Source: Euphorbia lathyris (Eukaryota > Streptophyta > Magnoliopsida > Malpighiales > Euphorbiaceae). Taken from it: a stretch of 64,000 bases of DNA. The position numbers were made by a program, and so were the translations under genes. The stretch spans positions 12,056,001 to 12,120,000 of the forward strand of contig NC_088917.1 in assembly GCF_963576675.1 (NCBI RefSeq), read 5' to 3'. Shown piece by piece: positions 15,115-55,931 of this stretch; the first letter of the stretch is position 1; each line of letters starts with the position of its first letter. A model generated the notes under the pieces. That model was not told the origin of the DNA. It saw only the letters and a list, made by a program, of their open reading frames with translations, and did not search any database.

Positions 15115-15123
15115 TATACAGTC

Positions 15124-27484: not shown

Positions 27485-27732
27485 CGACTTAATGCATTAT
27501 TTGTCCCGAACTTGTCCAAAAGCTTGATTGCTTCCCTGAAATTTTTAAAGTGTTCTGGTAACTCCTTCAACTTGTATAAAATATTCAGTTAGACTCTAAA
27601 TTTGTGTAAAATATAACCAATCAATCACTCAGTTGCAAAAATATAAGTTGGATGTAGAAGATGTGTTGCACATGTTTTAGAATATTATTACATAAGTCAC
27701 ATAATTGATTAAAAATAAAGTTCTTACTAACT
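27485..27732. mobile_element. Left half of a GGCTTAATACATC MITE, cut by the Tekay-like LTR
   Basis: It reads like the left half of the intact MITE at 14602 (TTGTCCAAAAGCTTGATTG, AAAATATTCAGTTAG, ACATGTTTTAGAATATTATTACATAA) and stops at TAACT where the LTR begins. The missing right half is at 49247-49497 on the other strand. Confidence 0.85.
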
Positions 27733-29308
27733 TGTCACGACCCAATCCGCGGATTGTGACCGGCGCTAGGGAACGGGTAAGCTTAAGCCACCAGAACCTG
27801 TAGCAAGCCTAATTTAACTTAAATAAACTATATACAGTTAATTCTTTTAAAAAATTATACATATTAAACATTGGATCATTTTCAAATATAATTTAATAAA
27901 TTCTTGTATATCTGGTACTGCGATCTAGAATTAGAATTTTATATTAATTAAAAGGATTATATATAATAACGATAGGTGTGTCGCCCGGAGGAAGATATTG
28001 AGCCGCAACAGACTTCTAGTCACCTGAAAAATTAAAGGGAGTCAAACCTCCCGTAGTGAATTAATTATATGCAATGCATAAGTAATCTAACATCCATGCA
28101 CAAAAATATATGTTTGAAAAACAAATTGATTAAGTGTATAATATATATAAAATTAGAATTGAATACATAGACATATATTTATATATATGGTTTAATACGT
28201 GTTGGACCCTAAACCTCAACACTCAGTCTAATACTCCACCAATAATCATAATTCCACTTATATCCAATAATTGGGGGACCGAGAATAACTCAACCGACCA
28301 CACGCCCAGTAGCTGGAGGTCCGAGAATAACTCAACCGATTCCGTACCCAGCCTCACTTAAATCCAAAATTCACATATCATATAGCCCGAGAATATCTCA
28401 ACCGGGCTCATCCATATATCAAAACATTCACAACATTAGCATCCCGATATTACCCGTGCGCACAAGGTCCTGATGCCGCTCATCAGGTAGCATGTCCATA
28501 ACACGCATTTATACCATAATTATAAATATATATATAAACTGAAATCAAAAATATAAAACATACTTTAAAAAAATGACACATCATTATTATTGAATGCTTA
28601 TGAAATGCTTTTTGTGAATGCAAATGCTAAATTAAAATGCATAACATATAATTAACTCACAAATTGCTCCTAGCTGACTGTTATATTTTTCAGGTACTGC
28701 TCCTCCTCCTACTGGTTGAGTATCTGTCAGAAAATTACATCGATCACCGGAATCCTTCCATCAGAAAATCTGAAATTGATTGTATGGAAACAACAATTAT
28801 ACCACCTTGCTCCATACCATTTAAATAGTCTAGAAACACCCGTAGACACTTAATTTAGATCGGAAAACTCCATGATTTGAGATGATTAACGATTTTCCGG
28901 CGAGACTCCGTTCACCGGTGGAAAATCCTTGCATGCTCCGATTATTAACCTACCCAAAGGTTTTCCGGCCTCATGTGCTTGTATATGAGTTCAAGAGATT
29001 CGATTTGGTATAAAGAATGTGAAAAACGGTGACCGAATGAGGGAGAACGGAAAGCCGTCCGCGTTGAATTGTGGGAGCCGAATTGCTGGAATAAAATGAA
29101 GAAGAATAGAAATAGTTACTGTGCTCATCTACTTACACATATATAAATGTGTAAAACTCCACTTTGCCCCTTATTCTTTTCAATTTTATATTAATATTCC
29201 CTTTTATTTATTAGTATGATTAATACTTTCCTCTAAAACAACTATATACTAACTTAATATTTAACATTTAGATCTTATATTTTATTATATATATATTTGG
29301 GTATTACA
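27733..29308 (-). mobile_element. 3' LTR of a Tekay/Del-like gypsy element
   Basis: On the minus strand the LTR runs from TGTAATACCC (29308) to ATCGTGACA-like sequence (27733). It is the near-identical inverse of the 5' LTR at 49498-51089 (1576 against 1592 bp). The polypurine GGATGGAAGAA stands just before it on the minus strand (29311 onward), so this is a 3' LTR. The outer 5-bp flank (minus strand AGTTA, 27728-27732) equals the outer flank of the 5' LTR. Confidence 0.9.
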
Positions 29309-29616
29309 ATTCTTCCATCCTTATAGAAATTCGTCCTCGAATTTGAAATTAAAGAACTAACCTCATAATTATAATAAATAAGGATAGTAGCTCTGCGTTT
29401 CCAATTGAGATTCACAAAGAACACTTTTCCAAGGAATGATTACTCCATACCACCTTCACCATCGGGATGAATTTTGATCGAAAACTTCACGATCCATAAT
29501 TGCCACTATCAATTGAGATTCACAAAGAACACTTTTCCAAGGAATGATTACTCCATACCACCTTCACCATCGGGATGAATTTTGATCGAAAACTTCACGA
29601 TCCATAAGTTCACCGG
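29309..29616 (-). pseudogene. 3' end of the Tekay-like polyprotein: chromodomain remnant
   Basis: Read on the minus strand: LMDRE, IPMVKVVWSNHSLEK and, after a frame change, CESQLETQSYYPYLF, then AATTCGAGGACGAATTTC before the polypurine tract. This is the chromodomain and 3' leader of the Tekay/Del lineage, which targets integration to heterochromatin. It is the continuation of the coding sequence that ends at 55599 on the plus strand. Confidence 0.75.
29402..29608. repeat. 108-bp direct tandem duplication in the chromodomain remnant
   Basis: CAATTGAGATTCACAAAGAA starts at 29402 and 29510, and the copies stay identical through ACTTCACGATCCATAA. The second copy is about 99 bp. It duplicates part of the chromodomain coding region. 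Confidence 0.9.
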
Positions 29617-29981
29617 TTTTTTATGATTTATAAGAAAATGGGGATGATGAAGAGTTTTTATCATCGCTAGGGCATCTATTATTTGGATGTAATGATGATT
29701 TTAAAAAGACGGTGCGTGTAAGCGTTACCATGACCTCATCATTACCGACATAATGATGACATTACGAACGAATGAAGCCCTAAAGAGCTTTTCAAATAAC
29801 ATTGGAATTGGTCTAAGGCCCAGACCCATTAAGCGATCAAACATCAGCCCAGCGGCCAAACATCAGTTCAACCCACTTAAAAAACTCTTTTCGAAAAGAC
29901 AGATCAATAAAACACATGAATAAGGAGAATCTTCGTATTCCAAAGGGCTCACTTAACACTGCCTGAGCATGGAATAATAGG
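29617..29981. other. Flank of the Tat-like element, possibly part of an older LTR
   Basis: No gene. Together with 39990-40330 it forms the site into which the 10-kb element inserted. The right part carries a TATAAATAG box (40056-40064) and leader-like sequence, so the pair may be one older LTR split by the insertion. Confidence 0.35.
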
Positions 29982-30221
29982 GTCCTGTTGGGGGCTAATT
30001 TAATTTTTTGTGTTTTAGCATAGGTTATAATTTTTAGTCTATAGTTATTTTATTTTAATTAAATTCATTTTGCAATCAAATAAAAATAGAAAATAACATC
30101 AAAAGATTAGGGTGTTGTTAAACCCAGCCCCAAATTTCCACCCCTAGCCCCGTGAAAGGACGAAAATACCCTTTTATGGGTTTTGGGGAGGAAAAAACTA
30201 TTTTTTTGCTCTCCCGACACG

Positions 30222-30386
30222 CGGGCGTGTGACTATCACGCCTCACCATGTGGTCGGGCGTGATAGCCCCACGCCTCACCGTGTGGTCGGGCGTGATCGC
30301 TACACGCCCGACCACACGGTGAGACGTGGGGCTATCACGCCCGACCACACGGTGAGGCGTGATAGTCACACGCCCGCGTGTCGGGA
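30222..30386. repeat. 33-bp tandem array forming a 200-bp palindrome
   Basis: Five units of 33 bp of the type CGGGCGTGATNNNNNCACGC plus CTCACCGTGTGGT. The orientation flips in the middle, so 30198-30401 is a near-perfect inverted repeat with arms of about 100 bp and a spacer of a few bases. The minus strand is open through it (30369-30118) and encodes an 11-residue repeat (TSHRVVGR-like). Confidence 0.9.
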
Positions 30387-30720
30387 GAGCAAAAAAAATA
30401 GCTAGTCCGCTATTGAATTAAATCCGTAAATACCTGTTACGTAAAAAAATTAGTCCGTTGTTGAATTAAACCCGTAAAAAAATTAGTCCGCTAGTCCATA
30501 TCTAGACGGCGAGCAGGTGACGGGACGGATTTCCCCCCGATAGTAGGCCTTCCGTCTATAAAATTACACTAAATTAATCTAAAAATTTAACATATAAATT
30601 ATAATCGAATTAATATCAAAATTTCATATATAAATTAAACCCCAAATTAATGTAAACATTTAACAATTTAATTAAAACGTAAATATAATTTTTTTTTTTA
30701 AAAACATTTCAAAAACCCCT

Positions 30721-30918
30721 CGGGCGTATGAACATCACGCCCGAACAATAGGTCGGGCGTATGAACATCACGCCCGACCTATGGTGCGGGGGTATGAATA
30801 TCACGCCCGACCTATGGTGCGGGCGTGATAGCCTCACGCCCGAACCACAGGTCGGGCGTGATATTCATACGCCGGAACCGTAGGTCGGGCGCGATGTTCA
30901 TACGCCCGACTGCGATTC
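30721..30918. repeat. Second array of the same 33-bp unit, six copies
   Basis: Unit starts at 30721, 30754, 30787, 30820, 30853 and 30886, each beginning CGGGCG or CGGGGG and holding CACGCCCG 15-22 bp later, so every unit is self-complementary. The first units read CGGGCGTATGAACATCACGC and the later ones CGGGCGTGATATTCATACGC, which shows a switch in orientation. Confidence 0.9.
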
Positions 30919-31609
30919 CGGCGTTTTTAAAAAAATCACCCACAGATTCAATTTTTAACTTAAATCAAAAAAACAAAAACGGTAAATCTTATTATTTTTT
31001 TTCTTTCCCTTTACGGTTATTGTTACACTCCATGTTTTGGTTCACAAATAGTCCGGATTTGATCAAAGAGTGTGTAGGGTATTTGAGAGGTTTTGTGTTT
31101 TTTCAAATTTTGGGTAAAGGGTAGTTTGGTCTTTTTACGGGGCTAGGGGTGGGAATTCATGGATGGGTTTAGTAATCCACAAAGATTATTATAAAAAGAA
31201 AATAGAAACAAAAAGAAAAGAAAAAGAAATAATAAAAATCAGAGGTAAATTTGCACCATTTTTTTCAGTAGCCCATCCAGCAACTTCGGCGATGAAAACG
31301 GACCCCGAAACGGAAAGATATCAGATAGTTATTATTTTTTTTCAAAAAGTTCGGGATGTTAGCTTTCCGGAATGTAAAAAACGGAGCAAAACGGAGCTAA
31401 AACGAAGCCGGTAGAACTTTTCAAAGGGAAGTAGTGCTGAAAAACGGGTTTGAATATGTCTACACATTACAGGAACGTATTTCACGAAATTACCTCCATT
31501 CTTCCAACTCCCAACTCAGCCATTTTCTTTCTTCAACTTATGGGAAGGTAATGGGATCATGGGTGAGAAATTCAAGGGCCACTAACATGAGATTTGTTAC
31601 CCAAAATCC

Positions 31610-31617
31610 TATAAATA
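31610..31617 (+). promoter_or_regulatory. TATA box in the 5' LTR
   Basis: CCTATAAATAGAGC, in the usual U3 position; the same box is at 38395-38402 in the 3' LTR. Confidence 0.65.
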
Positions 31618-33189
31618 GAGCTTAACTCTTTCATTCCAATCCCCACTCAAAATCAATCAAACACAGACAACTCAATTTTTCTCTCAAATTCTCTGCCAAA
31701 ATCGGCCTTTTTGTCAATCCTTAGGTTCGTAGAAATCGTTCTTTAGCATCTAATTAGTCTAAACAAGGTCTGAATTCTCAGAATTAGTTGTTTAATCTTC
31801 CGTTCCTCGGAAAAGCTTCCAATTTTCAGAAACTTCAAATCCGAAATTCTCTTAGTTTAATCAACCAATTCTCAAATCGTTTCTTGCAATCTCTTAGTTA
31901 AGTCAGTAAAATCATTACCCAATCCTCGGTTCAAGCTTTCTTAGTTTAAATCAAATTTCACAATTGTTATATTCTTCAAAGCTTCAAGCATTTTCCGTGA
32001 AGCCAAGATCACCGAAACCCCATTTTCGAGTCATTCTTAGTTTACACACCTATTCCAAATTTCGTTTAGAAACTTTTTATTGATTTCAATCAATTAAAAA
32101 GACCTAGAAACAACCTTTTGAGTTTTTCATTATTGAAAAATTCATCAAACAACTTTTCTGGTGAGCCGTTTTCCAAGTTTTATTTAGAGATCGTTAGCTG
32201 ATCATTTTAGCCCAAATTAATTTTAATCTCTTTATTGACATCAATTCTAGAACTCTGAATTTTTATTTCGTAAAAAACGACATCCTATAGCCTTCTAAAT
32301 TGCCCCTAAAGTACCCTCCACGAAACAGAATCAAGCTTTTGGTTTTTTCAACCATCAAACAATTATTCTGTTGCCCAATTTTCAATAATCTATTCTGATT
32401 CATTTACTCGATCTTTTTCTAAAACTCCAGTTCTAAACTCTTCCTTCGCACACTAACTTTAAATACTAGCCTTCTTTTCGTTATAATCCGACCTCTATAG
32501 CTCCCGAAATTGAGCCCACAAAAGCATCAATTTAGTCCCATTTTGCTATTGACTTGGTGGTAAATTTCTGCTCAAGTCTCTGAACTCTCCGAATTACTTC
32601 AAATTCACCCAGCACTACTCGGACAACGCAACAGCCCCCGAGCCGATTTTCTGGAGGTCCAATCCTCAATTTCACGCATCCCAACGACATCAAAGAGATC
32701 GGTTAATTTTATTTCATCCCGTACATATTTGTTCTTGTGACTTATCTACATTTCTAGCTTTAAAGTTATTATTTCTTTTAAGTTGTAATTTTCATGCTTT
32801 ATTTTTATTTGTAATAAAAAAAACATTGAAAAATATTTACAAAATCAATAAAAATATAAAAGAAAATTAAAAAATTTATATCTTTGTGTTGTTTTATTGC
32901 CTTTATTTTTAGTACTTATCTTAAAAAATTGTTTTTCCGACCAACCTGTCAAGTAACGTCGGGACCCAAGACCGTTGTTTTTATTTTCAGTCCTTGTAAC
33001 GGTTGTCAATCGTTTTTCGTTTAGAATTCAAGTAATTTAGGCGCATTTTATTTATTTACTTCATTCAATTACCATTTTACCCTTTGAGAACTAGCTTCTC
33101 TGGTACGCCCGCATTATTTTTACCATTTTAATCCCCGCAAACGCGTATCAAGGTTAAAAATTGGGATATTTCGAAAATATCGCCAACAA

Positions 33190-33211
33190 TTTTTGGCACG
33201 CCCAGTGGGAC
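33190..33211 (+). promoter_or_regulatory. Primer binding site, first copy
   Basis: TTTTTGGCACGCCCAGTGGG directly after the LTR is the tRNA primer site type seen in plant gypsy elements. Confidence 0.8.
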
Positions 33212-33351
33212 CTAAAAAACATTTTTTTATTAATACCAAAACTACGGTTTCTTAAGCTTTGCCAAAAATTTTACAAACATTTTTCTTTAACATTTTTTTT
33301 TGTGTCAGACTCATTTCTCGCCCCACTATACTATCACCAAAATTTATTAGC

Positions 33352-33385
33352 TATCGCCAACAATTTTTGGCACGCCCAGTGGGAC
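33352..33385 (+). repeat. Second copy of LTR end plus primer binding site
   Basis: The 34 bases 33178-33211 (last 11 bases of the LTR plus the primer site) recur exactly at 33352-33385, 174 bp downstream, in the untranslated leader. Confidence 0.9.
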
Positions 33386-33585
33386 TCGAAACACTTTTTT
33401 TCTAGTACCGAAAATTTTTCACCAAATTTTTTTCTATTTTTAGGCTTAATTTTTTTTTCCATTTCTAAATTATTTAACCAAAAGTTAATTATTTTGGTAG
33501 TGTATTTATGTGGTATTTTATTGCCGTGATATTCTACTTTAGTATTTTATTTCCAAACTTTCCTAAATATTATTTGTTGTTTACA

Positions 33586-35946
33586 ATGCCACCCAAGAAA
33601 AATACAAGTCGAGAATTACACGTTCCGGAGTCTGATGAAAATCAGAAGAGGAATGAAGATACAAACGTGGACACGAATATGCCCGAAGGATATGTTGCCG
33701 ACACCGTGAGCCATTTGGAAGATGTTCATCGGACATCAATGCGACAACCAGATTTCGATGCATTCTTTGCGCGACAAGAGGCTCATATGCGCAACGTAGA
33801 AAGGCTTGTAGCCGAGATGTCGCAAAATGTTAAAGCTCAAATCGAGATGATGCAAGCTTGGAGACAACCCAATTTGGAAAACATGATTAATAATCTCACT
33901 GACGAGATAAATAATATCCCGGATAGGTGTGGTGAAATTTATGTTAAAAATTTGAATTCTCATAATGTTTCAGATAACACAAGGGAAGGCACTCCCCAAG
34001 GCGACCGATATAGGCCACCGCCTAGTCGTGAAGAAAACATAAGATTCAATGAGCGAGGAGATCGAATAACCTCGGAGCAATTTTCAATACCCCCAAATGC
34101 GCCTCATTTTAGGTCTAACACCGGACCTAATACCCACTCGGAGCACTATGGTGACAACAATGCCCGTGGTTTGGGGGGCATGTGGAAAAATCAAGACCGT
34201 GATCATACCCGCGAATACACTCGTGAAAATATTCGTGAGAATCCCCGTGATAATAATATATCTCGTGTTTCAGGTGTGAGAAGCGAAATATGTAATGAAG
34301 CGGAGGATAGGCAACGTATTCGAAACATTGTGCAAGAAATTTATGGACCTACGGTTCGTGAAGTGTACCGCCCGGAGTTTCAGAAAGCCTATCCTAGGGA
34401 ATACGACCCGCAATACCCATTTCCTCATAATTTTAGAATTCCAGATTTTTCTTTATTTTCAGGTGAAAGTGGACAATCTACCATCGAGCACGTTGCTCAA
34501 TTTTCATTTCAATGTAGCGGGATTAGTGCGGAGCAAGACTTTGATATGCTTCGTTTGCGTTTATTCCCTGGATCACTAACTGGACCGGCTTTCACATGGT
34601 ATACGACATTACAACCTGAATCTATCAGAAGCTGGGGTCGCATGGAATAATTATTTCATGCTTAGTTCTATCGAACTGAGCCCGAGGTATGTGTCGCTGA
34701 ACTATCTCGTATGGTTCAGCGCTCAGGTGAGTCCGTTGAAAGTTTTATTAATCGTTTCAAGAAAATGAGGCATAGATGTCGAGTTAATATTCCTGAAATA
34801 GAATTTGTTAAAATTGCTCAACGTGGCTTAGAGTTTGAAAACAGGAAGAAATTCCAAGGCATTGATTTTTATGATTATTACGAACTTGTTGCTAAAGTAT
34901 CGGAATATAAAGAATTAATGCATGAGGATAATCGTAGGAAGAAAAACTCTGTAGGTAGTTACCATCAGGATGTAGAAACCAATGAAGCACATGAGGTAGC
35001 TATAGCCGAACTAACTAGAACAGGATCCCGCGTTTGTCCAATGCTAACAAAAAGTCCAAAAGCTCCCGAAGTGGTTAGACGAAATACGAATGTGCAATAT
35101 ACATTTGATGTTTCTAAAACCGAGGACCTTTTTGATTATTTGCTAAAGGAAGGTTTTATCACCTTACCACATGGACACATTATTCCATCGAGAGATGACA
35201 CCAGTGGAAAAACTTATTGTAAATATCATGATAGTTGGAGCCACGACATACAATCTTGCTTTGTTTTTAAGAATGCGATGCAGGATAGAATAAACAAAGG
35301 CGTGCTTAAATTTCCTGAAAAGAAAGAGAGCATGTTGATTGATGATGATCCATTTCCAGCCGCTACAATGATAAATGCAACTTCCATCGAGATACCACCT
35401 CCTAAGGGTAATGTCCATAGCAACACCTCGAGTCAAAGAAAAGGGCGCCCCGACCACCCAAAGACAAAACAAATTTGGGTACCAAAGGGCACTTTGCCAG
35501 CCGCTAAGGAGAAAGAAAAGCCACAGAGAAAACGAAAGCCAATAAATAAAAATAAAAGTGGCACAAACCAAGGTCGATCACGCTTCGTTACTCCACCTGC
35601 GCAAGTTCCCCTCGAAAAATGGTTCATCAACCGACATAAAAAATTTCCACAACCTCTCTCAAAAAATGCAAAAAGAAGAATAAGAAAGAGAGATGCAGAA
35701 AAAAGAAGGAAAAGTGAAATGGAGTTTTCTAGTGTCGATTCTAGCAACGTCTCGAAAGAAAAAATAAAAGAAAAGAAAAATGTGAAAATTCATGTTGGAG
35801 ATTTCATTATCCAAGCTGGTTGTGCTGCTACTTCTTTAATTTTACCAATAAATTTTAGAAGTAAAGATCCAACGGGGAGGTACACGAGATTCAAGAAGAC
35901 CGATGAAGTGGCGTCACAATTAAAGCTTTGTCGGAAGATCGGATGA
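33586..35946 (+). pseudogene. Gag of the Tat-like element, two in-frame stops
   Basis: Start ATG at 33586 (MPPKKNTSRELHVPESDENQ). One frame runs to TGA at 35944-35946 but is interrupted by TAA at 34648-34650 and TAG at 34663-34665. Without them it would be about 786 residues. It contains a glutamine/arginine-rich N-terminus, the retrotransposon gag core (FRIPDFSLFSGESGQSTIEH, MLRLRLFPGSLTGPAFTWYT, SGESVESFINRFKKMRHRCR), a CKYHDSWSHDIQSCFVFKNA zinc-like motif and a very basic end. Gag packages the element RNA. The stops lie in the middle of the core, so no full protein is expected. Confidence 0.85.
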
Positions 35947-36563
35947 AGCAGGTTTATTTTGACAAACCCACTCTAAAGATGACACGCCACATTAACCCAT
36001 TATACATCAAAGCACGCATTGATGGCAAGCCTTTATCGAGAGTTCTAGTTGATAACGGTTCAGCCGTTAACATTATGCCATTAAAGATGGCACTCGCTCT
36101 CGGGAAATCTGTAGGTGATATAATAACGTCAGAAATTTCTGTTTCAGCTTTTACCGGTGAAGTTGCTAAAACCTATGGGGTTTTACCTTTGCAACTTACC
36201 ATCGGTACCCAAACCACTACGGTGGAATTTTTTGTGGTGAACTCTACAGCAAGTTATCAAGCTTTGCTCGGTCGAGATTGGATTCACTCTAACTCATGCA
36301 TTCCGTCATCTTTGCACCAACTTTTACTACTTTGGAAAGGGGATGACGTTGAGGTGATTCAGGCAAATGAAAAACCTATTGAGACACATTCGGATATGGT
36401 GGAGTCTCGATTATACGAAGATAACATTGGTCCAATCAAGATCAAGACTAAAGGAAAAAGCAAGTCCTGCACCAATCAAGTGAAGAGCATCTTCAAGACG
36501 AGCACCATTTTGTCTTACTATAGGCCAGTTAGCAATGAACCTCTCATGGAAGAGGTTCAATGA
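35928..36563 (+). pseudogene. Aspartic protease of the Tat-like element
   Basis: It overlaps the end of gag by 19 bases in another frame, so it would need frameshifting; the first ATG is at 35943. The active-site region reads VLVDNGSAVNIMPLKMALAL (D-N-G in place of D-T/S-G). Further on are AFTGEVAKTYGVLPLQLTIG, VVNSTASYQALLGRDWIHSN and IPSSLHQ, the standard plant gypsy protease order. After the protease the frame stops at 36563, with nothing of the polymerase following. Confidence 0.8.
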
Positions 36564-37839
36564 TTTTGTCACAGCCAAATGACAAAGCGGTGGCATCAGT
36601 CGCTATAGAAAAAATAAAGATGCGATAAGGTACGAGGTGCCTTTTATTTTTGTTTTGTTCCTTTTTTGCATCATTTTACATTTTAGTTTTTCTTTTAAGC
36701 TATTAATTAGCATCATTGATTTTTTTAGCATGCTTAGAGGTAATAAAGCATCCATTTCAAAAAAAAAGTGTAAAAAACGAAATGATAAAAGACATAAATG
36801 AAAAGAAAAAATAAAAATGAAGAAAAACAATAAAAGTCCATCTACATGTCCCAAAAAATTAAAAAAGAATAAAAAAGTTGTGAGAGATAAAAAAAAGCCA
36901 TCGCTACAAAGAAGCTCGGTGTAGCCTTTTCCACCAGATCCTTCGTCCACTCGCTTAGTTTTGTCCCCATCAAATACGAGACAACAACATGTGCAGCACT
37001 GATGGCATCCAAACTCGAAGACGTCGGGGGGGGGGGGGGGGGGGGGCAGGTTCCGTCATGTACGATATATCCATATCATCAAATGGATTCTCAACTCCAA
37101 GCTCAAGAGGTTCAAGACGGATATTAGCCATTCATGATTCTTAAGAAAAAGAAGTGACAATTCAATTTATTTCCGCCAATCAGTAGCTCAAAGAAGTTTA
37201 TTAACAACGGAAGTGAAGTCGCGAATTCATAGACGGAGTTAAACCAATTTCAGCAAGCAACGGATCTATATGGATATAAATCGGATTCAACTTTAACATT
37301 TTTCAGGAATAAGCTCAACTTAAAATCAATTTTTATATAATTTAAATAAAATGGCTGTAGCTATTTTGTTTAAATGAGCAGGAAAAACCGATTGCAAATT
37401 GAGCCTTGTTACAAAGGAAAATAGAGGCAGACACGAGCTTATTCAGCATCAACAAACATAGCGTGATTGATGAAAATTTCAGCAGCAGCGAAGCATATTA
37501 GTCAAAGCCGAAGCAAGCAAAAAATCGAGATTCCAATATCAGAAAATGCAGCAGCAGATGGACATGTCTTGTAATTCAAAGAAAAATTCAACAAGTCATC
37601 CAGCAATTTCATCACACACCGTCAATTTTCATACAAATTTACCTCGGTGATCTTTATTTTCTTTCTGAGCCATCAACCAGCAGAAATCATGTCTGAAAAT
37701 GACGAGGAAGCTGCAAAGAACACAATTTCAGCTTCAACAAAATTAGTACTGACGGGTAAAAAAAAAAAATTTAATAAAAGACTTATTTTATGTGCAAAAT
37801 TCATTTTCAAATCTTTTACACATAAAATAGGGGGGCAAT
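36564..37839. other. Non-coding 3' internal region of the Tat-like element
   Basis: It holds a G21 run at 37026-37046 and ends in the polypurine tract ATAGGGGGGCAAT. No reverse transcriptase, RNase H or integrase motif in any frame. Confidence 0.75.
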
Positions 37840-39989
37840 TGTTGGGGGCTAATTTAAGTTTTTGTGTTTTAGCATAGGTTATAATTTTTAGTCTATAGTT
37901 ATTTTATTTTAATTAAATTCATTTTGCAATCAAATAAAAATGGGATAAAAATAGAAAATAACATCAAAAGATTATTATAAAAAAGAAAATAGAAACAAAA
38001 AGAAAAGAAAAAGAAATAATAAAAATCAGAGGTAAATTTGCACCATTTTTTTCAGTAACCCGTCCAGCAATTTCGGCGATGAAAATGGACCCCGAAACGG
38101 CAAGATATCAGACATTTATTATTTTTTTCAGAAAGTTCGGGATGTTAGCTTTCCGGAATGTCAAAACGGAGCAAAACGGAGCTAAAACGAAGCCGGTAGA
38201 ATTTTTCAAAGGGAAGTAGTGCTGAAAAACGGGTTTGAATATGTCTACACATTACAGGAACGTATTTCACGACATTACCTCCATTCTTCCAACTCCCAAT
38301 TCAGCCATTTTCTTTCTTCAACTTATGGGAAGGTAATGGGATCATGGGTGAGAAATTCAAGGGCCACTAACATGAGATTTGTTACCCAAAATCCTATAAA
38401 TAGAGCTTAACTCTTTCATTCCAATCCCCACTCAAAATCAATTAAACACATACAACTCAATTTTTCTCTCAAATTCTCTGCCAAAATCGGCCTTTTTGTC
38501 AATCTTTAGGTTCGTAGAAATCGTTCTTTAGCATCTAATTAGTCTAAACAAGGTCTCAATTCTCAGAATTAGTTGTTTAATCTTCCGTTCCTCAGAAAAG
38601 CTTCCAATTTTCAAAAACTTCAAATCCGAAATTCTCTTAGTTTAATCAACCAATTCTCAAATCGTTTCTTGCAATCTCTTAGTTAAGTCAGTAAAATCAT
38701 TACCCAATCCTCGGTTCAAGCTTTCTTAGTCTAAATCAAATTTCACCATTGTTATATTCTTCAAAGCTTCAAGCATTTTCCGTGAAATCAAGATCACCGA
38801 AACCCCATTTTCGAGTCATTCTTAGCTTACACACCTATTCCAAATTTCGTTTAGAAACTTTTTATTGATTTCAATCAATTGAAAAGACCTAGAAACAACC
38901 TTTTGAGTTTTTCATTATTGAAAAATTCATCAAACAACTTTTCTGGTGAGCCGTTTTCCAAGTTTTATTTAGAGTTCGTTAGCTGATCATTTTAGCCCAA
39001 ATTAATTTTAATCTCTTTATTGACATCAATTCTAGAACTCTCAATTTTTATTTCGTAAAAAATGACATCCTATAGCCTTCTAAATCGCCCCTAAAGTATC
39101 CTCCACGAAACAGAATCAAGCTTTTAGTTTTTTCAACCATCAAACAATTATTCTGTTGCCCAATTTTCAATAATCTATTCCGACTCATTTACTCGTTCTT
39201 TTTCTGAAACTCCAGTTCTAAACTCTTCCTTCGCACACTAACTTTAAATACTAGCCTTCGTTCCGTTATAATCCGACCTCTACAGCTCCCGAAATTGAGC
39301 CTGAAAGTCCCACAAAAGCATCAATTTAGTCCCATTTTGCTGTTGACTTAGTGGTAAATTTCTGCTCAAGTCCCTGAACTCTCCGAATTACTTCAAATTC
39401 GCCCAGCACTGCTCGGACAACGCAACAGCCCCCGAGCCGATTTTCTGGAGGTCCAATCCTCAATTGCACGCATCCCAACGACATCAAAGAGATCGGTTAA
39501 TTTTATTTCATCCCGTACATATTTGTTCTTGTGACTTATCTACATTTCTAGCTTTAAAGTTATTATTTCTTTTAAGTTGTAATTTTCATGCTTTATTTTT
39601 ATTTGTAATACAAAAAAAAAAAACATTGAAAAATATTTACAAAATCAATAAAAATATAAAAGAAAATTAAAAAATTTATATCTTTGTGTTGTTTTATTGC
39701 CTTTATTTTTAGTACTTATCTTAAAAATTTGTTTTTCCGACCGACCTGTCAAGTAACGTCGGGACCCAAGACCGTTGTTTTTATTTTCAGTCCTTGTAAT
39801 GGTTGTCAATCGTTTTTCGTTTAGAATTCAAGTAATTTAGGCGCATTTTATTTATTTACTTCATTCAATTACCATTTTACCCTTTGAGAACTAGCTTCTC
39901 TGGCACGCTCGCATTATTTTTACCATTTTTAATCCCCGCAAACGCGTATCAAGGTTGAAAATTGGGATATTTCGAAAATATCGCCAACA
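37840..39989 (+). repeat. 3' LTR of the Tat-like element (2150 bp)
   Basis: From TGTTGGGGGC to CGCCAACA; TATAAATA at 38395-38402. It differs from the 5' LTR by scattered substitutions and small indels (for example an extra GATAAAAATGG-type insertion at about 37940) and lacks the nested MITE. Confidence 0.9.
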
Positions 39990-40845
39990 TGTCCGAAACT
40001 AACGAGGGACTGACACGTGTATGAAGCATAAGCCCACTTGTAAACAATATTTTCCTATAAATAGCTGAGAAATTAGAGACACATGTACATAACTAAATAC
40101 TCAATTCTCTCCTATAACTCTACTTTCAAGTTGGTATTCTTGTTAGATACCTCACAGACTTAAGCATCAAAGAGGGGTTTTCGTACTTCGGCCCCTATCT
40201 GACCGTGTATTGTATTCTCAGGTCAACTAAAGCAATTTACAAGAAAGATTCTGATATACCGATATTACTATATAAGTTTACTTAACTCTTAACCCTAAAG
40301 CAAATCAATCAATTAACCTAGAAGCAAAATATTGCTCTTCCTCTCCCTTACAAGTCGTGGTTGTCACCGTCTCCTCCTCTCCCCTCCCTCAATCCATCAT
40401 TCTTAGTTCTTGTATCGTCGTCTCTTTTCCAAGTGTGTTTCAGTGTAGTTGATTCGTGATCGATGATATACAATCTTAGTTCATTCTTTTACTCCAATAA
40501 TCTAAACAGATTATGTACTATAAAAGGTAACCCGTGAATCCGCTACAGTATTCGTATATAAATACAAATCCCAACCTGTATCCACTATTTATAATAAAAC
40601 AATAAAAAGAATGAACCAAACGGGTATATAATTTAACTGTTTCAAAATCTAAATATTAACAAAAAAAAATTACAATTTTTATCAAATAGATAGGCTAAAT
40701 TTTGACTTTTACCAATAAGCCGTTTACTTTTCATGTGTAGAGTCAATATAATTCTTGATTCAAATGAGTTAACTAGCAAGTGAAAAAAAATATTTTGCGA
40801 AAATCAAGTTGGATTTTGTTTTAAAAAAAAAATTGAGGATCTATC

Positions 40846-43332: not shown

Positions 43333-43499
43333 TTTCACATGGACCCTGATGACCACGTGAATTTGGTCATTCACCTTTAGATGTAGGCTAATTAAATCTA
43401 AACCTTAAGATACTTTGAATCTCCACCTTAGGATTTTAATCAGCTTCCATCTAACGGTGAATAACCAAATTCATTGTGGTCATTAGAGTCTATGTGAAA
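43333..43499. mobile_element. Palindromic MITE, second copy
   Basis: TTTCACATGGACCCTGATGA on the left and the mirror of TCATTAGAGTCTATGTGAAA on the right; same family as 40846-41023. Confidence 0.75.
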
Positions 43500-44867
43500 C
43501 TACTGTATATAATTAAGTCTCTTAACTTCAATGAAACTCTTAATGAATTTTTTATATATATTGAGTCATTAAGCATTAATTTTGTTGTGGATATCCTTAT
43601 TTAACTTTTCTGACAAGTTTGGTCGACAAGCGTTATTAAGGGATTCAGTCTGCTGACGTGGATATTTTTACTTCTATATGGATAAATAAAAAAGTTAAGT
43701 TGTTTGATTAGGAGAGGGAGTAAAAAGTGAAAAGAAATTACAGAAATCGATTTCCAGTAGGTTTTTCTAAGCTCGAAATCGAGTATGAAAGAACCTGTTG
43801 GAAATGGATTTTGGTGTTAGAGGAAAAAATCGATTTGACGATTCTAATGCTGGAACTCATTAAATTGGAGAGGAGAAGATCGAGTTTGGAAGAATTTATT
43901 GGAAGTTAATTTCTATAATTTCTATTTATTTTTTAATTTTTTTTTATCTCTCATAGTTAAGAAACTCTTATTTTTATTTGTCCATGTCAACTAGCCGAAT
44001 CACCGTGCATATATGCAGCCCAAACTCGACGGAAAAATTAAATAAAGACCTGATCCATAACATAATCAATGATTAATGGTTTCATATAAAAAAATAATAG
44101 AAAAATAATTGATCTTTAAAACATGCAAAGTTTGGAAGTTTAATTATGTTTTTTACAATTTATATTTTGTCTAGAGTAAAATATATTTATGACCTCTAAG
44201 TTATAATAATACTAATATTATAACTCTAAATTTTATTTTTTACATTAAAATTCTTAAATCTTATATTGTAACATCCAAATAAAAGTTCATGGACAATTTT
44301 ATTATATTATCAACAAAGTTTATCATAAATGTAAGGTTAATTAATTAAATTACTTGGTCCTAAAACTAATTTATAAAAAAAAAAATTGAGTATATCTATT
44401 GAGAGGGCACAAGTTGATCATTTATTTTAATATTTATAACCTATAGTTTAACACATCATTTTCAATCCTCTGTATTACTTTAATCACATCCAATTGAGAT
44501 CAATTAGTCATTGAAAGAGACATTGCTTTAAAGACAAGGCTTGACATTTTCATGTTATGCTTTTCAATTTAATTTAATATAATTAATTCTTCAATTTATG
44601 TTATCTAATGTTTTTTAATTAATTTAATCATTACATGTCATTTCCAAATATTGGTATTTTGTAGGTTTATTATTATTAGACTAATTATATTTCCCAACAT
44701 TATTATTGACTCATGTCTCCATCACTTTGTATCAAACAAATTACACTTGAGCTTATCATAATATAAGCAAGTGTATCAAAAATATATTAATGAATGTGTT
44801 AGCGGTTTATAGTATTCGTGAATTAAGAAATATATTAAATTTGATTCAGATGATTAGTATGAATATA
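43500..44867. other. No recognisable gene
   Basis: AT-rich. The 60-codon frame at 43727-43909 (ERRRSSLEEFIGS end) has no family match that I know. Confidence 0.4.
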
Positions 44868-45023
44868 CGGTGGTGAGCCAGATCAGCGACTAACTAAGTA
44901 AATTTGATCAGTCATTATTAGATCAAAAAGGTGTAAATCTCAACCTTACGATTTTAATATGTCCAGATCTAACAGAGACTAGCCAAATTCACTTGGTCAG
45001 TCACTGACTAGGTAAAAATTACT
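44868..45023. mobile_element. Palindromic MITE relic, third copy
   Basis: GATCAGTCATTATTAGATC on the left and AGATCTAACAGAGACTAGCC on the right, with CAACCTTACGATTTTAAT in the middle as in the other copies. More diverged. Confidence 0.5.
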
Positions 45024-45041
45024 GTATGAATATAAAGGAGT

Positions 45042-47903: not shown

Positions 47904-48265
47904 GAGGAATAAATAATTCCTAAAAGTTTAAATTATCAACAACTAAATAAAAATAAAGTAAAATAAAAATTATAAGAATATCTCTGAAATTAATAGAAAA
48001 ACCGAAGTGAAAGATGTAAAAAATAAATCTAAATTGATTGTATAAACTAAAAACTACAAAGAAAAAAATATGATGCATAAATTCAAAATTGAATTACAAG
48101 GGTCCATGATATTACTGATGTTACAAAAGAAATTCGAGATTTGTTACTTATTCGCGCAAATTATTGTGCGACTCTTTTTCTTAGATTAGCAAATGGTATA
48201 ACTCATCATCATTTTTGTTCCAATGCTAATTTTTTTAGTGATGTTGTTATTCCTGGTTATTTAAA
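47904..48265. other. Unassigned sequence
   Basis: A short frame near 48100-48260 reads ITDVTKEIRDLLLIRANYC and LRLANGITHHHFC. I do not recognise it. Confidence 0.3.
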
Positions 48266-48840
48266 GGCTTAATGCTTCTCCAGCCCCCTTAACTTGTCCA
48301 AATTGGTCATTTTACCCCTCCAACTCATCGAATGTCATATTTACCCCCTTAACTCCATAAAAATGGTATTTGTCACCCCCTTAACTTGTCCAAATTTGTC
48401 ATTTTACCCATTCTCAACTCATCGAATATCCTATTTATTCTCTTAACTCTATAAAAGTTGTATTTCTCACCACTTATGATCCTATTTACTTTCTTAACTC
48501 CATAAAAATGGTATTTCTTATCCCTTTATATTAGTAAAAAAAGTTGAAAAGAGAAAGAACGAATAAAAAATACAAATAACAAGAACATTAATATAAACAA
48601 GTTAAATACATTATATGTAGGGATAATGTAACAAAATAGGCCTATGATTTTTTAGGAAGTATCAATTTAGGTTCCACTTACAAAATAGCATAAATATAGG
48701 TTTAACGTTTAAAAAAGTTATCAATTTAGGCTTCGATAATGGATTGTAAGGGGTGAAAAATACCACTTTTATGGAGTTAAGGGGGTAAATAGAACATTCT
48801 ATGAGTTGGGGGATAAATAGACAAGTTGAGGGGTGAGAAA
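48266..48840. mobile_element. MITE with CCCCCTTAACTTGTCC ends
   Basis: Left arm GGCTTAATG...CCCCCTTAACTTGTCCAAAT, partly repeated at 48376. The right arm mirrors it (ATGGAGTTAAGGGGGTAAAT, ACAAGTTGAGGGGTGAGAAA). A truncated relative is at 26438. Confidence 0.65.
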
Positions 48841-49246
48841 CAGGAGCGTCTTCAGTATTCTGGAGGCCCTAGGCTATTTTGATGCTATTAAATATTGATT
48901 TTGGCGAATCTGAATTCAATTACAAATTAGAATTATTTAAAGACGGAGGTAAACAATGAATCAATTATTCTATGATTGAAGAGGAGTAGAAGAGGTTTGT
49001 TATATTATATGAGCAATGAAAATAAACCAATCATAAAATCCTATTTCATAAAACTAAATACGTTTATTTTATTTTAGAAATAATAATATACAAATAGTCT
49101 AATAACAAATGAAGGAAGAAGGAAGTGATGCAATGACAGATAAATCAGATTCAAATATTTTCATAAACAATTATGTAGATAAAAAGTTTTTGAGAGAAAA
49201 AAAACTTCCACCACAGCTTTATAAAATTTTACAAGTGTTTTTTAAA
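48841..49246. other. No recognisable gene
   Basis: 48846-48880 has a GGAGGCCCTAGGC phrase resembling a hAT-type end. The 60-codon frame at 49109 has no known family. Confidence 0.35.
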
Positions 49247-49497
49247 GGCTTAATACATCATTTGCTTCGTGAACTTATCCAAAAAGATTAATTGTCTATT
49301 TGAATTTTTAAAGTGTTCCAATATCCCCCTCAACTTATATCAATTGTCTACTTAGCTCTCTGAATTTATGTAATTGTAATCAATTAATCATTTCGTTGCA
49401 AAAAAAAAAAGTTCAATACAAAAGATATATTGCATGTGCATAAAAAGGTAAAACGACGGTTCTAGTATTAGAGAAGACAAGTTTTATAGTTGAGTTA
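49247..49497. mobile_element. Right half of the split GGCTTAATACATC MITE, inverted
   Basis: In reverse complement it reads like the right half of the MITE at 14602 (CTATAAAAC, TCTCTAATACTAGAACCGT, then GTTTTAC). It starts at the TAACT duplication and ends with AAATGATGTATTAAGCC. It exactly complements 27485-27732. Confidence 0.85.
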
Positions 49498-51089
49498 TGT
49501 AATACCCAAATATATATATAATAAAATATAAGATCTAAATGTTAAATATTAAGTTAGTATATAGTTGTTTTAGAGGAAAGTATTAATCACACTAATAAAT
49601 AAAAGGGAATATTAATATAAAATTGAAAAGAATAAGGGGCAAAGTGGAGTTTTACACATTTATATATGTGTAAGTGGATGAGCACAGGAACTATTTCTAT
49701 TCTTCTTCGTTTTATTCCAGCAATTCGGCTCCCACGATTCAACGCCGACGGCTTTCCGTTCTCCCTCATTCGGTCACCGTTTTTCACATTCTTTATACCA
49801 AATCGAATCTCTTGAACTCATATACAAGCACATGGGGTCGGAAAACTTTTGGGTAGGTTAATAATCGGAGCATGCAAGGGTTTTCCATCGGTGAACGGAG
49901 TCTCGCCGGAAAATCGTTAATCATCTCAAATCATGGAGAGTTTTCCGATCTAAATTAAGTGTCTACGGGTGTTTCTAGACTATTTAAATGGTATGGAGCA
50001 AGGTGGTATAATTGCTGTTTCCATACAATCAATTTCAGATTTTCTGATGGAAGGATTCCGGTGATCGATGTAATTTTCTGACAGATACTCAACCAGTAGG
50101 AGGAGGAGTAGGAGGAGGAGCAGTACCTGAAAAATATGACAGTCAGCTAGGAGCAATTTGTGAGTTAATTATATGTTATGCATTTTAATTTAGCATTTGC
50201 ATTCACAAAAAGCATTTCATAAGCATTCAATAATAATGATGTGTCATTTTTTTAAAGTATGTTTTATATTTTTGATTTCAGTTTATATATATATTTATAA
50301 TTATGGTATAAATGCGTGTTATGGACATGCTACCTGATGAGCGGCATCAGGACCTTGTGCGCACGGGTAATATCGGGATGCTAATGTTGTGAATGTTTTG
50401 ATATATGGATGAGCTCGGTTGAGATATTCTCGGGCTATATGATATGTGAATTTTGGATTTAAGTGAGGCTGGGTACGGAATCGGTTGAGTTATTCTCGGT
50501 CCTCCAGCTACTGGGCGTGTGGTCGGTTGAGTTATTCTCGGTCCCCCAGTTATTGGATATAAGTGGAATTATGATTATTGGTGGAGTATTAGACTGAGTG
50601 TTGAGGTTTAGGGTCCAACACGTATTAAACCATATATATATAAATATATGTCTATGTATTCAATTCTAATTTTATATATATTATACACTTAATCAATTTG
50701 TTTTTCAAACATATATTTTTGTGCATGGATGTTAGATTACTCATGCATTGCATATAATTAATTCACTACGGGAGGTTTGACTCCCTCTAATTTTTCAGGT
50801 GACTAGAAGTCTGTTGCGGCCCAATATCTTCCTCCGGGCGGCACACCTATCGTTATTATATATAATCCTTTTAATTAATATAAAATTCTAATTCTATATC
50901 GCAGTACCAGATATACAAGAATTTATTAAATTATATTTGAAAATGATCCAATGTTTAATATGTATAATTTTTTAAAAGAATTAACTGTATATAGTTTATT
51001 TAAGTTAAATTAAGCTTGCTACGGGTTCCGGTGGCTTAAGCTTACCCGTTTCCTAGTGCCGGTCACAATCCGCGGATTGGATCGTGACA
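49498..51089 (+). mobile_element. 5' LTR of the Tekay/Del-like element
   Basis: From TGTAATACCC to ATCGTGACA, followed by the primer site. Outer flank AGTTA at 49493-49497. It differs from the LTR at 27733-29308 by scattered substitutions and by a 12-bp GGA-rich expansion (AGGAGGAGGAGTAGGAGGAG, near 50100). Confidence 0.9.
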
Positions 51090-51091
51090 AA

Positions 51092-51104
51092 GTTGGTATC
51101 AGAG
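51092..51104 (+). promoter_or_regulatory. Primer binding site (initiator tRNA-Met type)
   Basis: TTGGTATCAGAGC two bases after the LTR end. Confidence 0.85.
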
Positions 51105-52600
51105 CCTAGGTTAGAAATTCTGAACCTAGGGTAATCGAAGTTCTGGTTACTGCGGAATTAGGATTGTGAATCCATTTTTGATAGTCTTCTTTTAGTTAGA
51201 TCCAGCGTATTGTAAGAGTCTTATTATTTGCAAATACCTTTTATTTGTTCACAAAATGAGGCAATCAATATCTAAAATAGTTTAAACCGAATTAGTAAAT
51301 CAAGCAATTACAGTGATTTAGATGATGTGATTTTGTTCGCAAAAAGTGTAATGATTTATTACCCTAACTACCTCCTATGAGATAAAGATACAGATTTAGA
51401 AGGCAAACGAACTAGAAAACTAAATAAGTGTAATCTTATTTGAACCTGCAAGTTCGGTAATAAAAAATATTTTTCTCTAGAAATGAAGACGATTTAAAGT
51501 TCAATCAATTATTTTTCATTGTCCTTCATCTTTTCTTTTAGTATTAAATTTCTCCTCAAACTTCGACCTACCAAGCTGCTATTATATTTTCTTATGAATT
51601 ATAACTTCAATGTCTTACATTAAAGCTTATCTCATTTTGCCCTCAATTCCTGAGTGCGACACATATATTCATAACTTGGTTCGTTTTCTTTCATGTCTTT
51701 AACGAACCTAGAACTTATTTCCTATTGATCATCTACTAACCCTCGTACCACACACACAACTATTCACCTCAACTGAACTTGTAAATTTTTTTGAAAGGAT
51801 GATAGCAGATTAGTGGAAGTTATTGCGGTTCATATCAGTTGAAAGGTTTTTCAGAATGATGCATACCATGTATGATGGTGTCATAGGTGACCCTATGGAC
51901 TAACTAAATTAATTACAGAAAAATGCAAAGATTGTCTTACTATCCATATGGTAGAACACTCTTTTGAAGAGTGATGTATGAGTATGATTCAACGATAATA
52001 TTCAAACTTAAATGGAAAGTATCATTTGGGCTAAATTGAAGAAACTATTTAATGAAGACTTCGCTATATATAATAAAGAACAAAAACAACCATAAAAAAA
52101 GATAATAATATTCATGGCATAAATTGTCATGGTCCTTATTATGTTACAACTAGTAGATATTCGTAAGCCGTGTGGGTATATGTTGGCCAAGGAAAAAAAA
52201 ATTTAATTAACCTCATTTTTCAGAGGTCTTTATGTAGTGCATTAAGACAAAACTTTTTATTCAAATTGAGAATCTTTCTACATCATCAGTTTCAGAATAT
52301 GCGTGGGAGTGGGTCAACCGAGTCATTTTGTTTGTAGAGACATGACAGTTGGCAGAAATTTGTAGTTTGAACAGGGACAAGCTATAATGTAATTCACTCT
52401 TACTCCACAAGATAATGAGACTTGAAATGTTTCATGAGATGCTACAATATTTTGGTTCTTGGTGTTACTCATTCTTTTATTGCTCGTTGCTTTCCTATAA
52501 TAATAAATATAACTCCAGAAAGGTTAGAGTTCTCCTTATCTTAGCTACTCCATTAGCAACTCATTAGAAACATATGTTGTGTTTCCTTCTTATTCTATTA
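51105..52600 (+). pseudogene. Decayed gag region of the Tekay-like element
   Basis: Scattered gag-like words only (for example FLRMMHTMYDGVIGD at about 51850-51900). No frame longer than 60 codons. Confidence 0.45.
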
Positions 52601-55599
52601 CTCTAGAAGGAAGAGATCTACTAGCATATTTGATTTTGTTAGATGTGATTGATTTTAATTTCATCTTGGAAATGGATTAGTTATCTCAATATTTTGCCAC
52701 TTTAGATTGTCGTGGAACGGTGGTAAGATTTAACATACCAGGAGATGCTGAATTCGAATTCAAAGGGAATAAAAATACTTCCTCTTTGATTTTGATATCA
52801 GCTATAGAAGCTAGAAAGTTGCTGCATAAAGGGTGTCAATGATATTTTGCCTTAGTAAATGATACAATGGTAAATGAGGGTAAAATAGAGAATGTTCCTG
52901 TTGTTAATGAATTTCTAGATGTTTTTTCGAGGAATTTCCAAGGTTACCTCTTGAAAGGGAAATTGAAATTTGTATTAACTTAGTTCCTGGTACTACCCTA
53001 ATATCCATGCTACCTTACATGATGGTGTTAGCAGAATTGAAGGAGTTCAAGGAAAAATTGCAAGATTTAATTGATAAAGGCTTCAATCGACCTAGTGTGT
53101 CTTCATAGGGTGCTCCTGTGTTGTTTGTTAAGAAGAAAGATGGATTGCTTCAGCTTTGCATTGATTATAGACAATTTAAATAAGGTGACAATCCGCAACA
53201 AATACCCTCTTCCTCGAATTGAGGATTTATTTGATCAGTTGCAAGGTGCGTGTCACTTCTCTAAAATTGATTTGCAGTATAGGTATCATCAGTGGAGAAT
53301 CAAAGGTAAAGATATACCGAAGACAAAATCCAGAGCACGATATGACCATTATGAAATTTTTTACCAACGCACCAGCATCATTTATAGATCTCATGAATCA
53401 GGTGTTTAAGCCATTTCTAGACCGTTTTGTGATTATGTTTATAGATGATATCTTGGTATACTCACGAAGTAGAGAGGAACACGTACACCATTTGAGAATG
53501 GTATCACAAACATTGAGAGAACATCAACTTTATGCTGAGTTCTCCAAATACGAGTTTTGGCTGGATAGTGTGGCTTTCTTGGGGCATGTGGTGTCCAAAT
53601 ATGGAATCCAAGTTTATCCTAAGAAGGTTGAAGCAATCACCAATGGGAAGAGACCGACTACAGTGACAAAGATTCATAGTTTCTAGGCTTAGTCGGTTAT
53701 ATTAGGAGATTTTTTCAAGATTTCTCTGAGGTAGCAACACCTTTTACAAAGCGAACTCAGAAAAATATTCCTTTCGTGTGGTCGAAAGCATGTGAGAACA
53801 GTTTCCAAAGGCTTAAGGAATGCTTGACTTTAGCACCAATACTTACCTTACCAACTAGAGCAGTAGGATTCACTATTTATTGCGATGCGTCTAGAGTTGA
53901 TATGGGCTATGTTTTGATGCAAAATGGTAAAGTTATAGCTTATGCTTCGAGACAATTAAAGAAGCACGAACAAAATTACCCAGCCCATGATTTGGAGATG
54001 GCGAGAGTAGTTTTTGCACTAAAAATGTGGAGATATTATCTTTATGGAGAAACTTGTGAGATCTACACTGATCATGAAAGTCTTAATACATATTCCAGCA
54101 AAAGGGTTTGAATTTAAAGCAGAGACGTTGGATGAAACTCTTGAAGGATTATGATTATGCCATTTTATATCATCCGAGTAAAGCTCATGTCGTGGCAGAT
54201 GCTCTAAACATGAAGTCTTTAGGAAGTTTAGCTCATATTAGCTCAGAAAGAAGGCGTTTGATTAAAGAAATACGCGATCTATATGATTCTGGAGTGCAAC
54301 TAGAGTTGAATCATCATGGTACATTCTTATCTCACTTTAAGGTTAGATCGGTGTTACTTGATAGAATCTAGGCACCTCAAATAAGAGATCCTCCGTTGCA
54401 TAAGATTGCATATGAATTGAACGATGCCGAGGCTCGGGATTTTAAAATTGATTATGGTGGATGTCTACGCCATGGAGACTAATTGTGTGTTCCCAATATA
54501 GATGATTTGAGGAAAGAGATCATGGAAGAAGCACACTTTGCAGCTTATAATGTGCATTCAGGCTCTACAAAGATGTAGCAAGATCTTAAGAAGTTGTACT
54601 GGTGGAATGGTATGAAACGAGATGTAGCAGAGTTTGTATCTCGATGTTTGACTTGTCAACAAGTAAAATTTGCATAACATAAGCCTTCAGGATTGCTACA
54701 ACAACTACCTATTCCAGAGTGGGAATGGGAGAAAATAACAATGGGTTTTGTAGTTGGATTACCTTGCATGTTTACTGGTTATGATTCAATCTGGATGATA
54801 ATTGATAGATTGACTAAGTCGGTGCATTTTCTACCAGTGAGAACAACCTATTCTGTAGCAAAGTTAGCAAGATTGTATGTGGATAGGATTGTGTCTACAT
54901 AGAGTACCGATGTCTATTGTGTCATATAGAGGCTCGCTGTTTACTTCAAAATTTTGGGAAAAAACTTTAAAAGTGCTCTAAGCACTAGATTAAATTTTAG
55001 CACAACTTTTCATCCATAGACAGATGGTCAATCTGAAAGAACAATCCAAACAATGGAAGATCTGTTGAGAATGTGTGTGTTGGAGGTTGGTGGTCAGTGG
55101 GATATACATATGCCTCACATTGAATTTGCATATACTAATAGCCACCACTCGAGCATTCAAATGGCTCCTTGTGAAGCATTATATGGTAGGAAGTGCAGAT
55201 CTCCTTTATGTTGGGAAGAAGTTGGTGAAAGGAAGCTTACTGGTCCCGAGATAATACAAATAACTTCTGAAAAGGTTCCCTTCATTCGTCAAAGATTACA
55301 AACTGCCTTTAGTAGGAAGAAAAACTATGTGGATCCAATGAGAAAGGACGTGGAATTCATGGAAGGGGACGATGTTTTTATCAAAGGAATCATGAAATTT
55401 GGAAAGAAAGGAAAGTTGAGACCTAGATGTATTGGACAGTTTGAGATTTTAAAGAGAATACTCGAAGTTGCATATCAACTAGCATTGCCTCCTAACTTAT
55501 CACTGGTTCATCTAGTGTTCCATATATCTATGCTAAATAAATAGGTTCCCATGTTCTCAAGTTATAGAAGTTAGGGAAGATTTATCTTATGCAGAACAA
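52601..55599 (+). pseudogene. Tekay/Del-like gypsy polyprotein: protease, RT, RNase H, integrase, start of chromodomain
   Basis: Pieces in order: protease end at about 52640 (LLDVIDFNFILEMD); RT entry at about 52900 (VPVVNEFLDVF); RT at 53160-53690 with [20 protein letters not shown], the catalytic FIDDILVYSRSREEH box near 53440 and FWLDSVAFLGHVVSKYG; RNase H at 53776-54240 ([34 protein letters not shown]); integrase at 54520-55540 (IDRLTKSVHFLPVRTTYSV, CEALYGRKCRSPLCWEEVGE, VFHISMLNK). EVREDLSYAEQ at 55567-55598 is the chromodomain entry. At least ten stops or frame shifts are visible (for example 53108, 53684, 54111, 54371 and 54901). The coding sequence is cut at 55599; its end is at 29309-29616 on the other strand. 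Confidence 0.85.
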
Positions 55600-55931
55600 C
55601 TATTTTATACCAAGTTTTTATCACAAAATTAAAACCTAACTTCAAATTATGATTTTGTACACCTCTTAGGTGTTGATAATTTGAAAATTAGGGGAATAAA
55701 TATATTCTAAAAAATTCATATGGGGAAATAAAATAAAATAAAAAGAACAAGTTTTGCAATTATTGTCGATGCATATAGTCGTGCATTCCACTTCCAAAAA
55801 GTTAATTTCGATATTTTTAAATATCCAATTTAGTATTATTTATTCTTTCCTTTATTAGATATATTATAAATTATAACCAACTATTAATATGGTCTTATTG
55901 TTCAAATAAAATGTAGCAATTTTTTGTGTGG
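55600..55931. other. Unassigned sequence beyond the inversion breakpoint
   Basis: AT-rich; not gypsy sequence. If the inversion is real, this was once adjacent to the sequence now at 29617. Confidence 0.4.

Follow-up and report, generated by a model that had tools for sequence, protein, structure and literature searches.

Two opposite halves of what is probably one gypsy element

How did two halves of what appears to be a single Ty3/gypsy retrotransposon come to lie 20 kb apart and in opposite orientation? The question is raised by a 64,000 nt stretch of the Euphorbia lathyris genome (here called the window; contig C8, positions 12056001–12120000), in which a 3′ long terminal repeat (LTR) on the minus strand and a 5′ LTR on the plus strand each stand without a partner. 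The arrangement is very likely the outcome of one gypsy insertion into a palindromic miniature inverted-repeat transposable element (MITE) that was later cut by a single inversion of about 26 kb. The first-pass annotation of the window had proposed that one inversion split one gypsy insertion. This stands as the best explanation of the locus, but the exact left break and the clean join of the coding sequence that went with it do not.

The 3′ LTR (27733–29308, minus strand, 1576 bp) has no partner on its own side, and the 5′ LTR occupies 49498–51089 (plus strand, 1592 bp). Both begin with TG and end with CA. When aligned they are identical at 1549 of 1576 sites, with 27 differences (23 transitions and 4 transversions) and 3 gaps, giving a Kimura two-parameter (K2P) distance of 0.0174. 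The window contains neither a third LTR copy nor further internal sequence of the element, and the description of the two as lone, near-identical LTRs on opposite strands was borne out. What we take to be a purine-rich run adjoins the 3′ LTR, and what we take to be a primer-site-like sequence adjoins the 5′ LTR.

When the 3′ LTR was used as a query, the genome yielded 54 matches, including those of the window itself. Of 350 first-look candidates 40 were scored; the top non-self match among these was the 5′ LTR, and no partner closer than the window pair was found. The next-best copy (L023; C5:79161000–79169500) is a solo LTR within the 8.5 kb fetched and is itself interrupted. Over 1556 shared sites, the two window LTRs differ at 26 (1.67%), while the C5 copy differs from them at 47 and 56 (3.0% and 3.6%). 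Because the 5′ LTR ranks first among the scored matches to the 3′ LTR and the two have diverged less from one another than from the C5 copy, the window LTRs are very probably those of one insertion. At assumed substitution rates of 1.3e-8 or 7e-9 per site and year the insertion would be 0.67 or 1.24 million years old, which sets an upper bound of about 0.7–1.2 million years for the inversion.

The internal region is decayed and also lies in two parts. The larger part (51090–55602, plus strand) carries reverse transcriptase, RNase H and the C-terminal domain of the integrase, in that order but spread over several frames between approximately 53.1 and 55.5 kb, followed by the start of the chromodomain region, and it ends at the break. 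Pfam matches were to RVT_1 in open reading frames (ORFs) at 53.2–53.7 kb, RT_RNaseH at 53.7–54.1 kb and SH3_Tf2-1 at 55.4–55.5 kb, and integrase homologues align at 54978–55550. This domain order is that of Ty3/gypsy elements, and the near-identical TG...CA LTRs, though now opposite in orientation, together with a 5 bp target-site duplication agree with membership in the chromodomain-bearing group. Homologues place the start of the chromodomain region at approximately 55.56 kb and its continuation on the minus strand at 29.4–29.6 kb, where 33 of the 111 homologues having hits gave a weak tblastn match. Neither of the two short chromodomain-region pieces had a Pfam match; of 2133 homologues found, 120 were listed, and 12 of these carry PF00385.

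The smaller part (29309–29509, minus strand) is the 3′ end of the internal region up to the break. Pieces of ten relatives (L024 and L029–L037) were fetched, most aimed at the 3′ internal end; all gypsy relatives were taken solely from the genome matches to the 3′ LTR. Seven of the ten match the piece that ends at 55.6 kb, and three (L031, L033 and L037) do not. In six of these seven the alignment runs unbroken from the 55.6 kb piece into approximately 29508 on the minus strand, while in the seventh (L030) the site is unaligned. The two parts of the element, opposite in orientation in the window, are thus contiguous in relatives, as expected of a single inversion.

Target site of the insertion

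The five bases outside the 5′ LTR are the same as those outside the 3′ LTR when both are read in the orientation of the element, and the AGTTA duplication noted earlier was therefore confirmed. The chance of such agreement for a random pair of sites in the window is 0.0018. One copy forms the last five bases of the left half of a palindromic MITE (27485–27732, plus strand) and the second (49493–49497) lies in the right half, which is inverted (49247–49497, minus strand). An intact related MITE at 14602–15114 (plus strand) served as the standard for comparison. The left half aligns over 27488–27728 with 14604–14845 of this copy, and the right half, once turned round, aligns over 49494–49243 with 14848–15118. 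When the halves are put together with a single copy of the 5 bp sequence, their alignment to the intact MITE has 382 identities, 108 mismatches and 35 gap positions and runs across the joint without a gap. The claim that the halves fit together was upheld in this respect, subject to the palindromy of the MITE that is considered below. No target duplication of the MITE itself was found for the split copy, and nothing convincing was seen for the intact copy.

A third nested layer, suggested by a resemblance between 26435–26549 and 48263–48472, was rejected as the right-hand sequence is part of a unit that has its own inverted arms. This unit (48263–48812; arms at 48317–48379 and 48750–48812) is also MITE-like, is partly tandem and resembles 26435–26549.

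Position of the junctions

The right junction, where gypsy sequence meets AT-rich DNA, lies at 55599–55603, with three bases uncertain. Past 55599, the window agrees with the gypsy relatives for three more bases in three of the six and for one base in the other three. Since the window shares one or three bases beyond 55599 with each of the six relatives, the right break most likely falls within 55599–55602, with 55602 favoured.

The left junction had been set at 29616/29617, because the chromodomain coding sequence that ends at 55599 seemed to resume at 29616 on the other strand. This join looked exact at the protein level, and proline is the next residue at the join position in 46 of 48 motif-bearing homologues. 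The join was rejected when the nucleotides were compared with the relatives and with the neighbouring repeat. Against ten other copies of that repeat, the nine bases 29608–29616 agree at eight of nine positions in four (L018, L020, L021 and L022), at six in four, at five in one and at four in one. Against the six gypsy relatives they agree at only four or five positions, and against the element's own distal copy of the sequence at four. The probability that a random 22-base stretch attains eight of nine is 0.0008. BLAST alignments of the repeat extend to 29606–29608 in L004, L017, L018, L020, L021 and L022 and to 29611 in L019, while those of L007, L012 and L016 end at 29617 or later.

As the nine bases fit the neighbouring repeat and not the gypsy element, the left junction is most likely at 29607/29608, between an extra copy of gypsy sequence and the repeat, which makes the inverted segment 25,995 bp long. 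The in-frame 'P-V' resumption at 29616 would then most likely be a coincidence. Since this evidence consists of nine bases, a left break at 29616/29617 is judged unlikely and is put no lower than that. Of the earlier account, the contiguity of the two coding pieces is retained, while the join at 29616 is not, and in place of breaks at 29616/29617 and 55599/55600 the comparison favours 29607/29608 and 55599–55602. Neither self-comparison of the window nor comparison of the flanks revealed any long homology between the breaks. A further MITE-like unit, with inverted ends of 58 nt, occupies 55954–56502 and adjoins the right junction.

An extra copy of 98 bp at the left junction

The sequence next to the left junction, 29510–29607 (minus strand), is an extra direct copy of 29402–29499, 98 bp long and 100% identical. 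It starts at the junction and is oriented like its source. The unit occurs twice in the window and once in each of the seven matching relatives. The copy at 29510–29607 is taken as the additional one because the relatives hold a single unit and because the gene continues in the copy that is farther from the junction. The 10 bp between the copies were considered as possible filler, but this was rejected as they are mostly native gypsy sequence.

The extra copy is probably a scar of the repair of the break. Copying during repair is preferred because the break lies no more than 0–9 bp from where the duplication ends. Tandem duplications arising from break repair in rice are reportedly the subject of work by Vaughn and Bennetzen from 2014. 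A variant of the inversion model, in which the 98 bp copy predates the inversion as an ordinary tandem duplication and the later break fell at its edge with the loss of a few bases, is possible but clearly the less likely course. It predicts the same final sequence, and tandem duplications of about this size do occur independently. It needs, however, a break that by chance hit within 0–9 bp of the duplication edge, and the unit is single in all seven matching relatives. The probability of zero differences in 98 bp, were the duplication as old as the LTR insertion, is approximately 0.18 (from the distance of 0.0174), so that the identity of the copies gives no firm date.

The events behind the preferred model, with repair copying at the cut, would have been as follows. 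A single insertion would have placed a Ty3/gypsy element, in minus-strand orientation, within the palindromic MITE. A double-strand break would then have cut it between the chromodomain region and the 3′ end, which are contiguous in relatives, and a second break would have occurred about 26 kb away. The anatomy of the locus suggests that the segment 29608–55602 was rejoined in reverse, and the ends would have been joined without long homology. Repair of the gypsy end would have copied 98 bp of the gypsy sequence next to it without turning them round; the copy and its position are there to be seen, and an origin of the copy in the same event is presumed.

Points that weigh against a simple inversion

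A number of observations do not favour this model or soften the evidence for it. The MITE shows 75% identity to its own reverse complement, which weakens it as a sign of the inversion. Because of this palindromy each half also fits the opposite half, and the assignment of left and right is put forward as a preference. The left half scores 252 on its assigned side versus 195 on the opposite side, the right half scores 192 versus 164, and a chimera of two left halves reaches 450, over a slightly longer stretch, versus 460 for left plus right. In the best alignments the right half has a counterpart for its first 41 bases on the right side of the MITE and not on the left side, which favours the original assignment. 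At the junctions, six of the ten other repeat copies fit the nine bases poorly (4–6 of 9), and the overlap at the breakpoints first given is 3 bp, as expected by chance (P 0.069), so that microhomology at those breaks is not above chance. The evidence base is a single assembly of one accession, and consists of sequence only.

The remaining points concern the second ancestral junction. The repeat at the left junction is cut at 29608 and runs to 29985 (plus strand); its remainder is found beyond a Tat-like element, at 39990–40265 (plus strand). These two parts are one repeat copy split by the Tat-like element, and other copies are uninterrupted. The genome holds 29 matches to 29617–29985, including that of the window itself, and the four copies that were followed (L025–L028) extend 0.6–1.2 kb farther upstream than the position equivalent to 29608. 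Had a balanced inversion passed through an intact copy, this upstream part would be expected from 55603 onward. It was not found there, in the rest of the window or within 20 kb on either side. The flanks that would have met at the second junction show no significant mutual similarity, and a comparison of 71 bases of the predicted flank with 111 bases from the distal end of the repeat gave no exact direct repeat of 7 bp or longer.

The ancestral adjacency at the second junction was thus not borne out by the flank, direct-repeat or upstream-part comparisons. It had been stated that inverting 29617–55599 restores one element in one MITE. Turning the segment back does restore the gypsy and MITE side, but it does not restore the repeat side, which is cut at 29608, and hence full reversibility is not supported. 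Either DNA was lost at the second break or the copy of the repeat in the window was already truncated. The latter may be the case because the copies differ in extent.

The repeat measures approximately 1.8 kb in the longest copies seen (L025–L027), and several shorter 3′ versions begin at the place matching 29813. ORFs were listed in one copy only.

Alternative explanations

Besides the variant with an older duplication, three other explanations were weighed against the single inversion. A misoriented or chimeric contig, with the element unbroken in the plant, is very improbable. The locus is rich in repeats and includes an inverted LTR pair of 1.6 kb, but neither junction falls in these LTRs. 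The interval 29300–30200 gave no inverted repeat, and in the self-comparison of the window the two junctions are not connected by any repeat. Both junctions fall at ends of the same gypsy site, with the repair-like 98 bp copy at one of them, which one would not expect to see from a misplaced contig, and the window contains no Ns.

There is an equally slim chance that the element left and re-entered the locus. Recombination between its LTRs would have released a circle with one LTR, while a solo LTR remained in the MITE. The circle would have opened at the chromodomain region and been captured nearby, and recombination between the now inverted LTRs would have flipped the 20 kb between them. Inverted LTRs could recombine and the same final order would result, but three events are needed in place of one, and nothing in the sequence calls for them.

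Least credible are two unrelated insertions of the same family into two MITE copies, each truncated later: the LTR family is multi-copy (the 54 matches above) and MITE-like units are common here, but the 5′ LTR outranks every other scored match to the 3′ LTR, the 5 bp flank and the insertion point in the MITE are the same, and the internal pieces end and begin at one site. Ectopic recombination between transposable element copies does not fit, as it predicts a complete element or an LTR pair at each break with exchanged duplications, and here there is one LTR per side and a matching duplication.

The inverted segment and its surroundings

The Tat-like LTR element within the inverted segment (29986–39989, plus strand) carries its label from the first-pass annotation; an aspartyl protease domain was found in it. 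The K2P distance between its LTRs is 0.0249 on the 2006 sites of the main part and 0.0081 on the first 124. By the main part it is no younger than the gypsy element, with a difference that is not significant as estimated from the standard errors, and it was probably in the segment when this was flipped; we consider it plausible that it was already in place. The 5′ LTR of the Tat-like element contains an insert of approximately 1.07 kb (30110–31180) that has no counterpart in its 3′ LTR and includes 33 bp palindromic tandem units in arrays at 30222–30376 and 30720–30909.

Between 39990 and 49246, the two ORFs of at least 70 amino acids that were found had no Pfam match; short exons in this interval could be missed. 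We recognised no host gene within the inverted segment and so expect no effect on the plant.

The window is plant DNA, from a contig of 88 Mb in an assembly of 1.02 Gb and 33 contigs. A gene at 6545–9328 (minus strand) encodes an At5g54830-type DM13/DOMON/cytochrome b561 protein, for which the best match among those listed is from Euphorbia peplus (88% identity). An ORF at 1835–2398 matches PF04827, a plant transposon protein family, and a tRNA match is found at 59949–60022 (Rfam RF00005, 68.4 bits). Tandem repeats occupy 19751–20334, with one pair of 287 bp that is 99% identical. Three regions resembling the reverse transcriptase and RNase H of long interspersed nuclear elements are present at 15477–17819, 56553–58318 and 62255–63661, the first two being approximately 75% identical.

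Comparison with known inversions and significance

Inversions that split a plant LTR element are already known, and this locus is another closely mapped case rather than a new kind. In the Orp region of African rice (Oryza glaberrima), an inversion breakpoint within the LTR retrotransposon R16 splits it into two fragments, as here, and a deletion flanks the other end (PMC3060143). There, approximately 4.3 kb of R16 was lost and the uninverted state is seen in other accessions, whereas here at most a few bases were lost and a 98 bp copy was gained (PMC3060143). An inversion index for the rice pan-genome reports transposable elements at one or both breakpoint regions in 1277 of 1769 inversions, with Ty3-gypsy elements enriched; this is a population survey, in contrast to the anatomy of a single split element described here (PMC10030860). 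The hk4S inversion of Arabidopsis chromosome 4 is likewise linked to a transposable element, but a model involving the activity of a Vandal-type element was suggested for it, and nothing here points to a transposase (PMC7474074). The Galileo inversions of Drosophila buzzatii also have transposable element sequence in opposite orientation at both breakpoints (PMC2775673). In those, two copies recombined and exchanged their target-site duplications, whereas here the halves of one cut element keep one matching duplication (PMC2775673).

A local inversion can be read from nested transposons without recourse to a second genome, as the age of the host element follows from its LTRs and the position of the break from the split. 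What this locus offers is a fairly exact map of a cut and its repair, and the 98 bp copy found there can serve as an example of error-prone repair outside the model plants. The locus further illustrates that a join that looks perfect at the protein level can be wrong by nine bases, and that such an error can be corrected by comparison with relatives from one and the same genome. The inverted LTR pair (1.6 kb, ~98% identical) now surrounds 20.2 kb (29309–49497), and we regard it as doubtful, though conceivable, that this segment flips recurrently by recombination between the LTRs. In that case a single accident of repair would have produced a switch for which the species is polymorphic.

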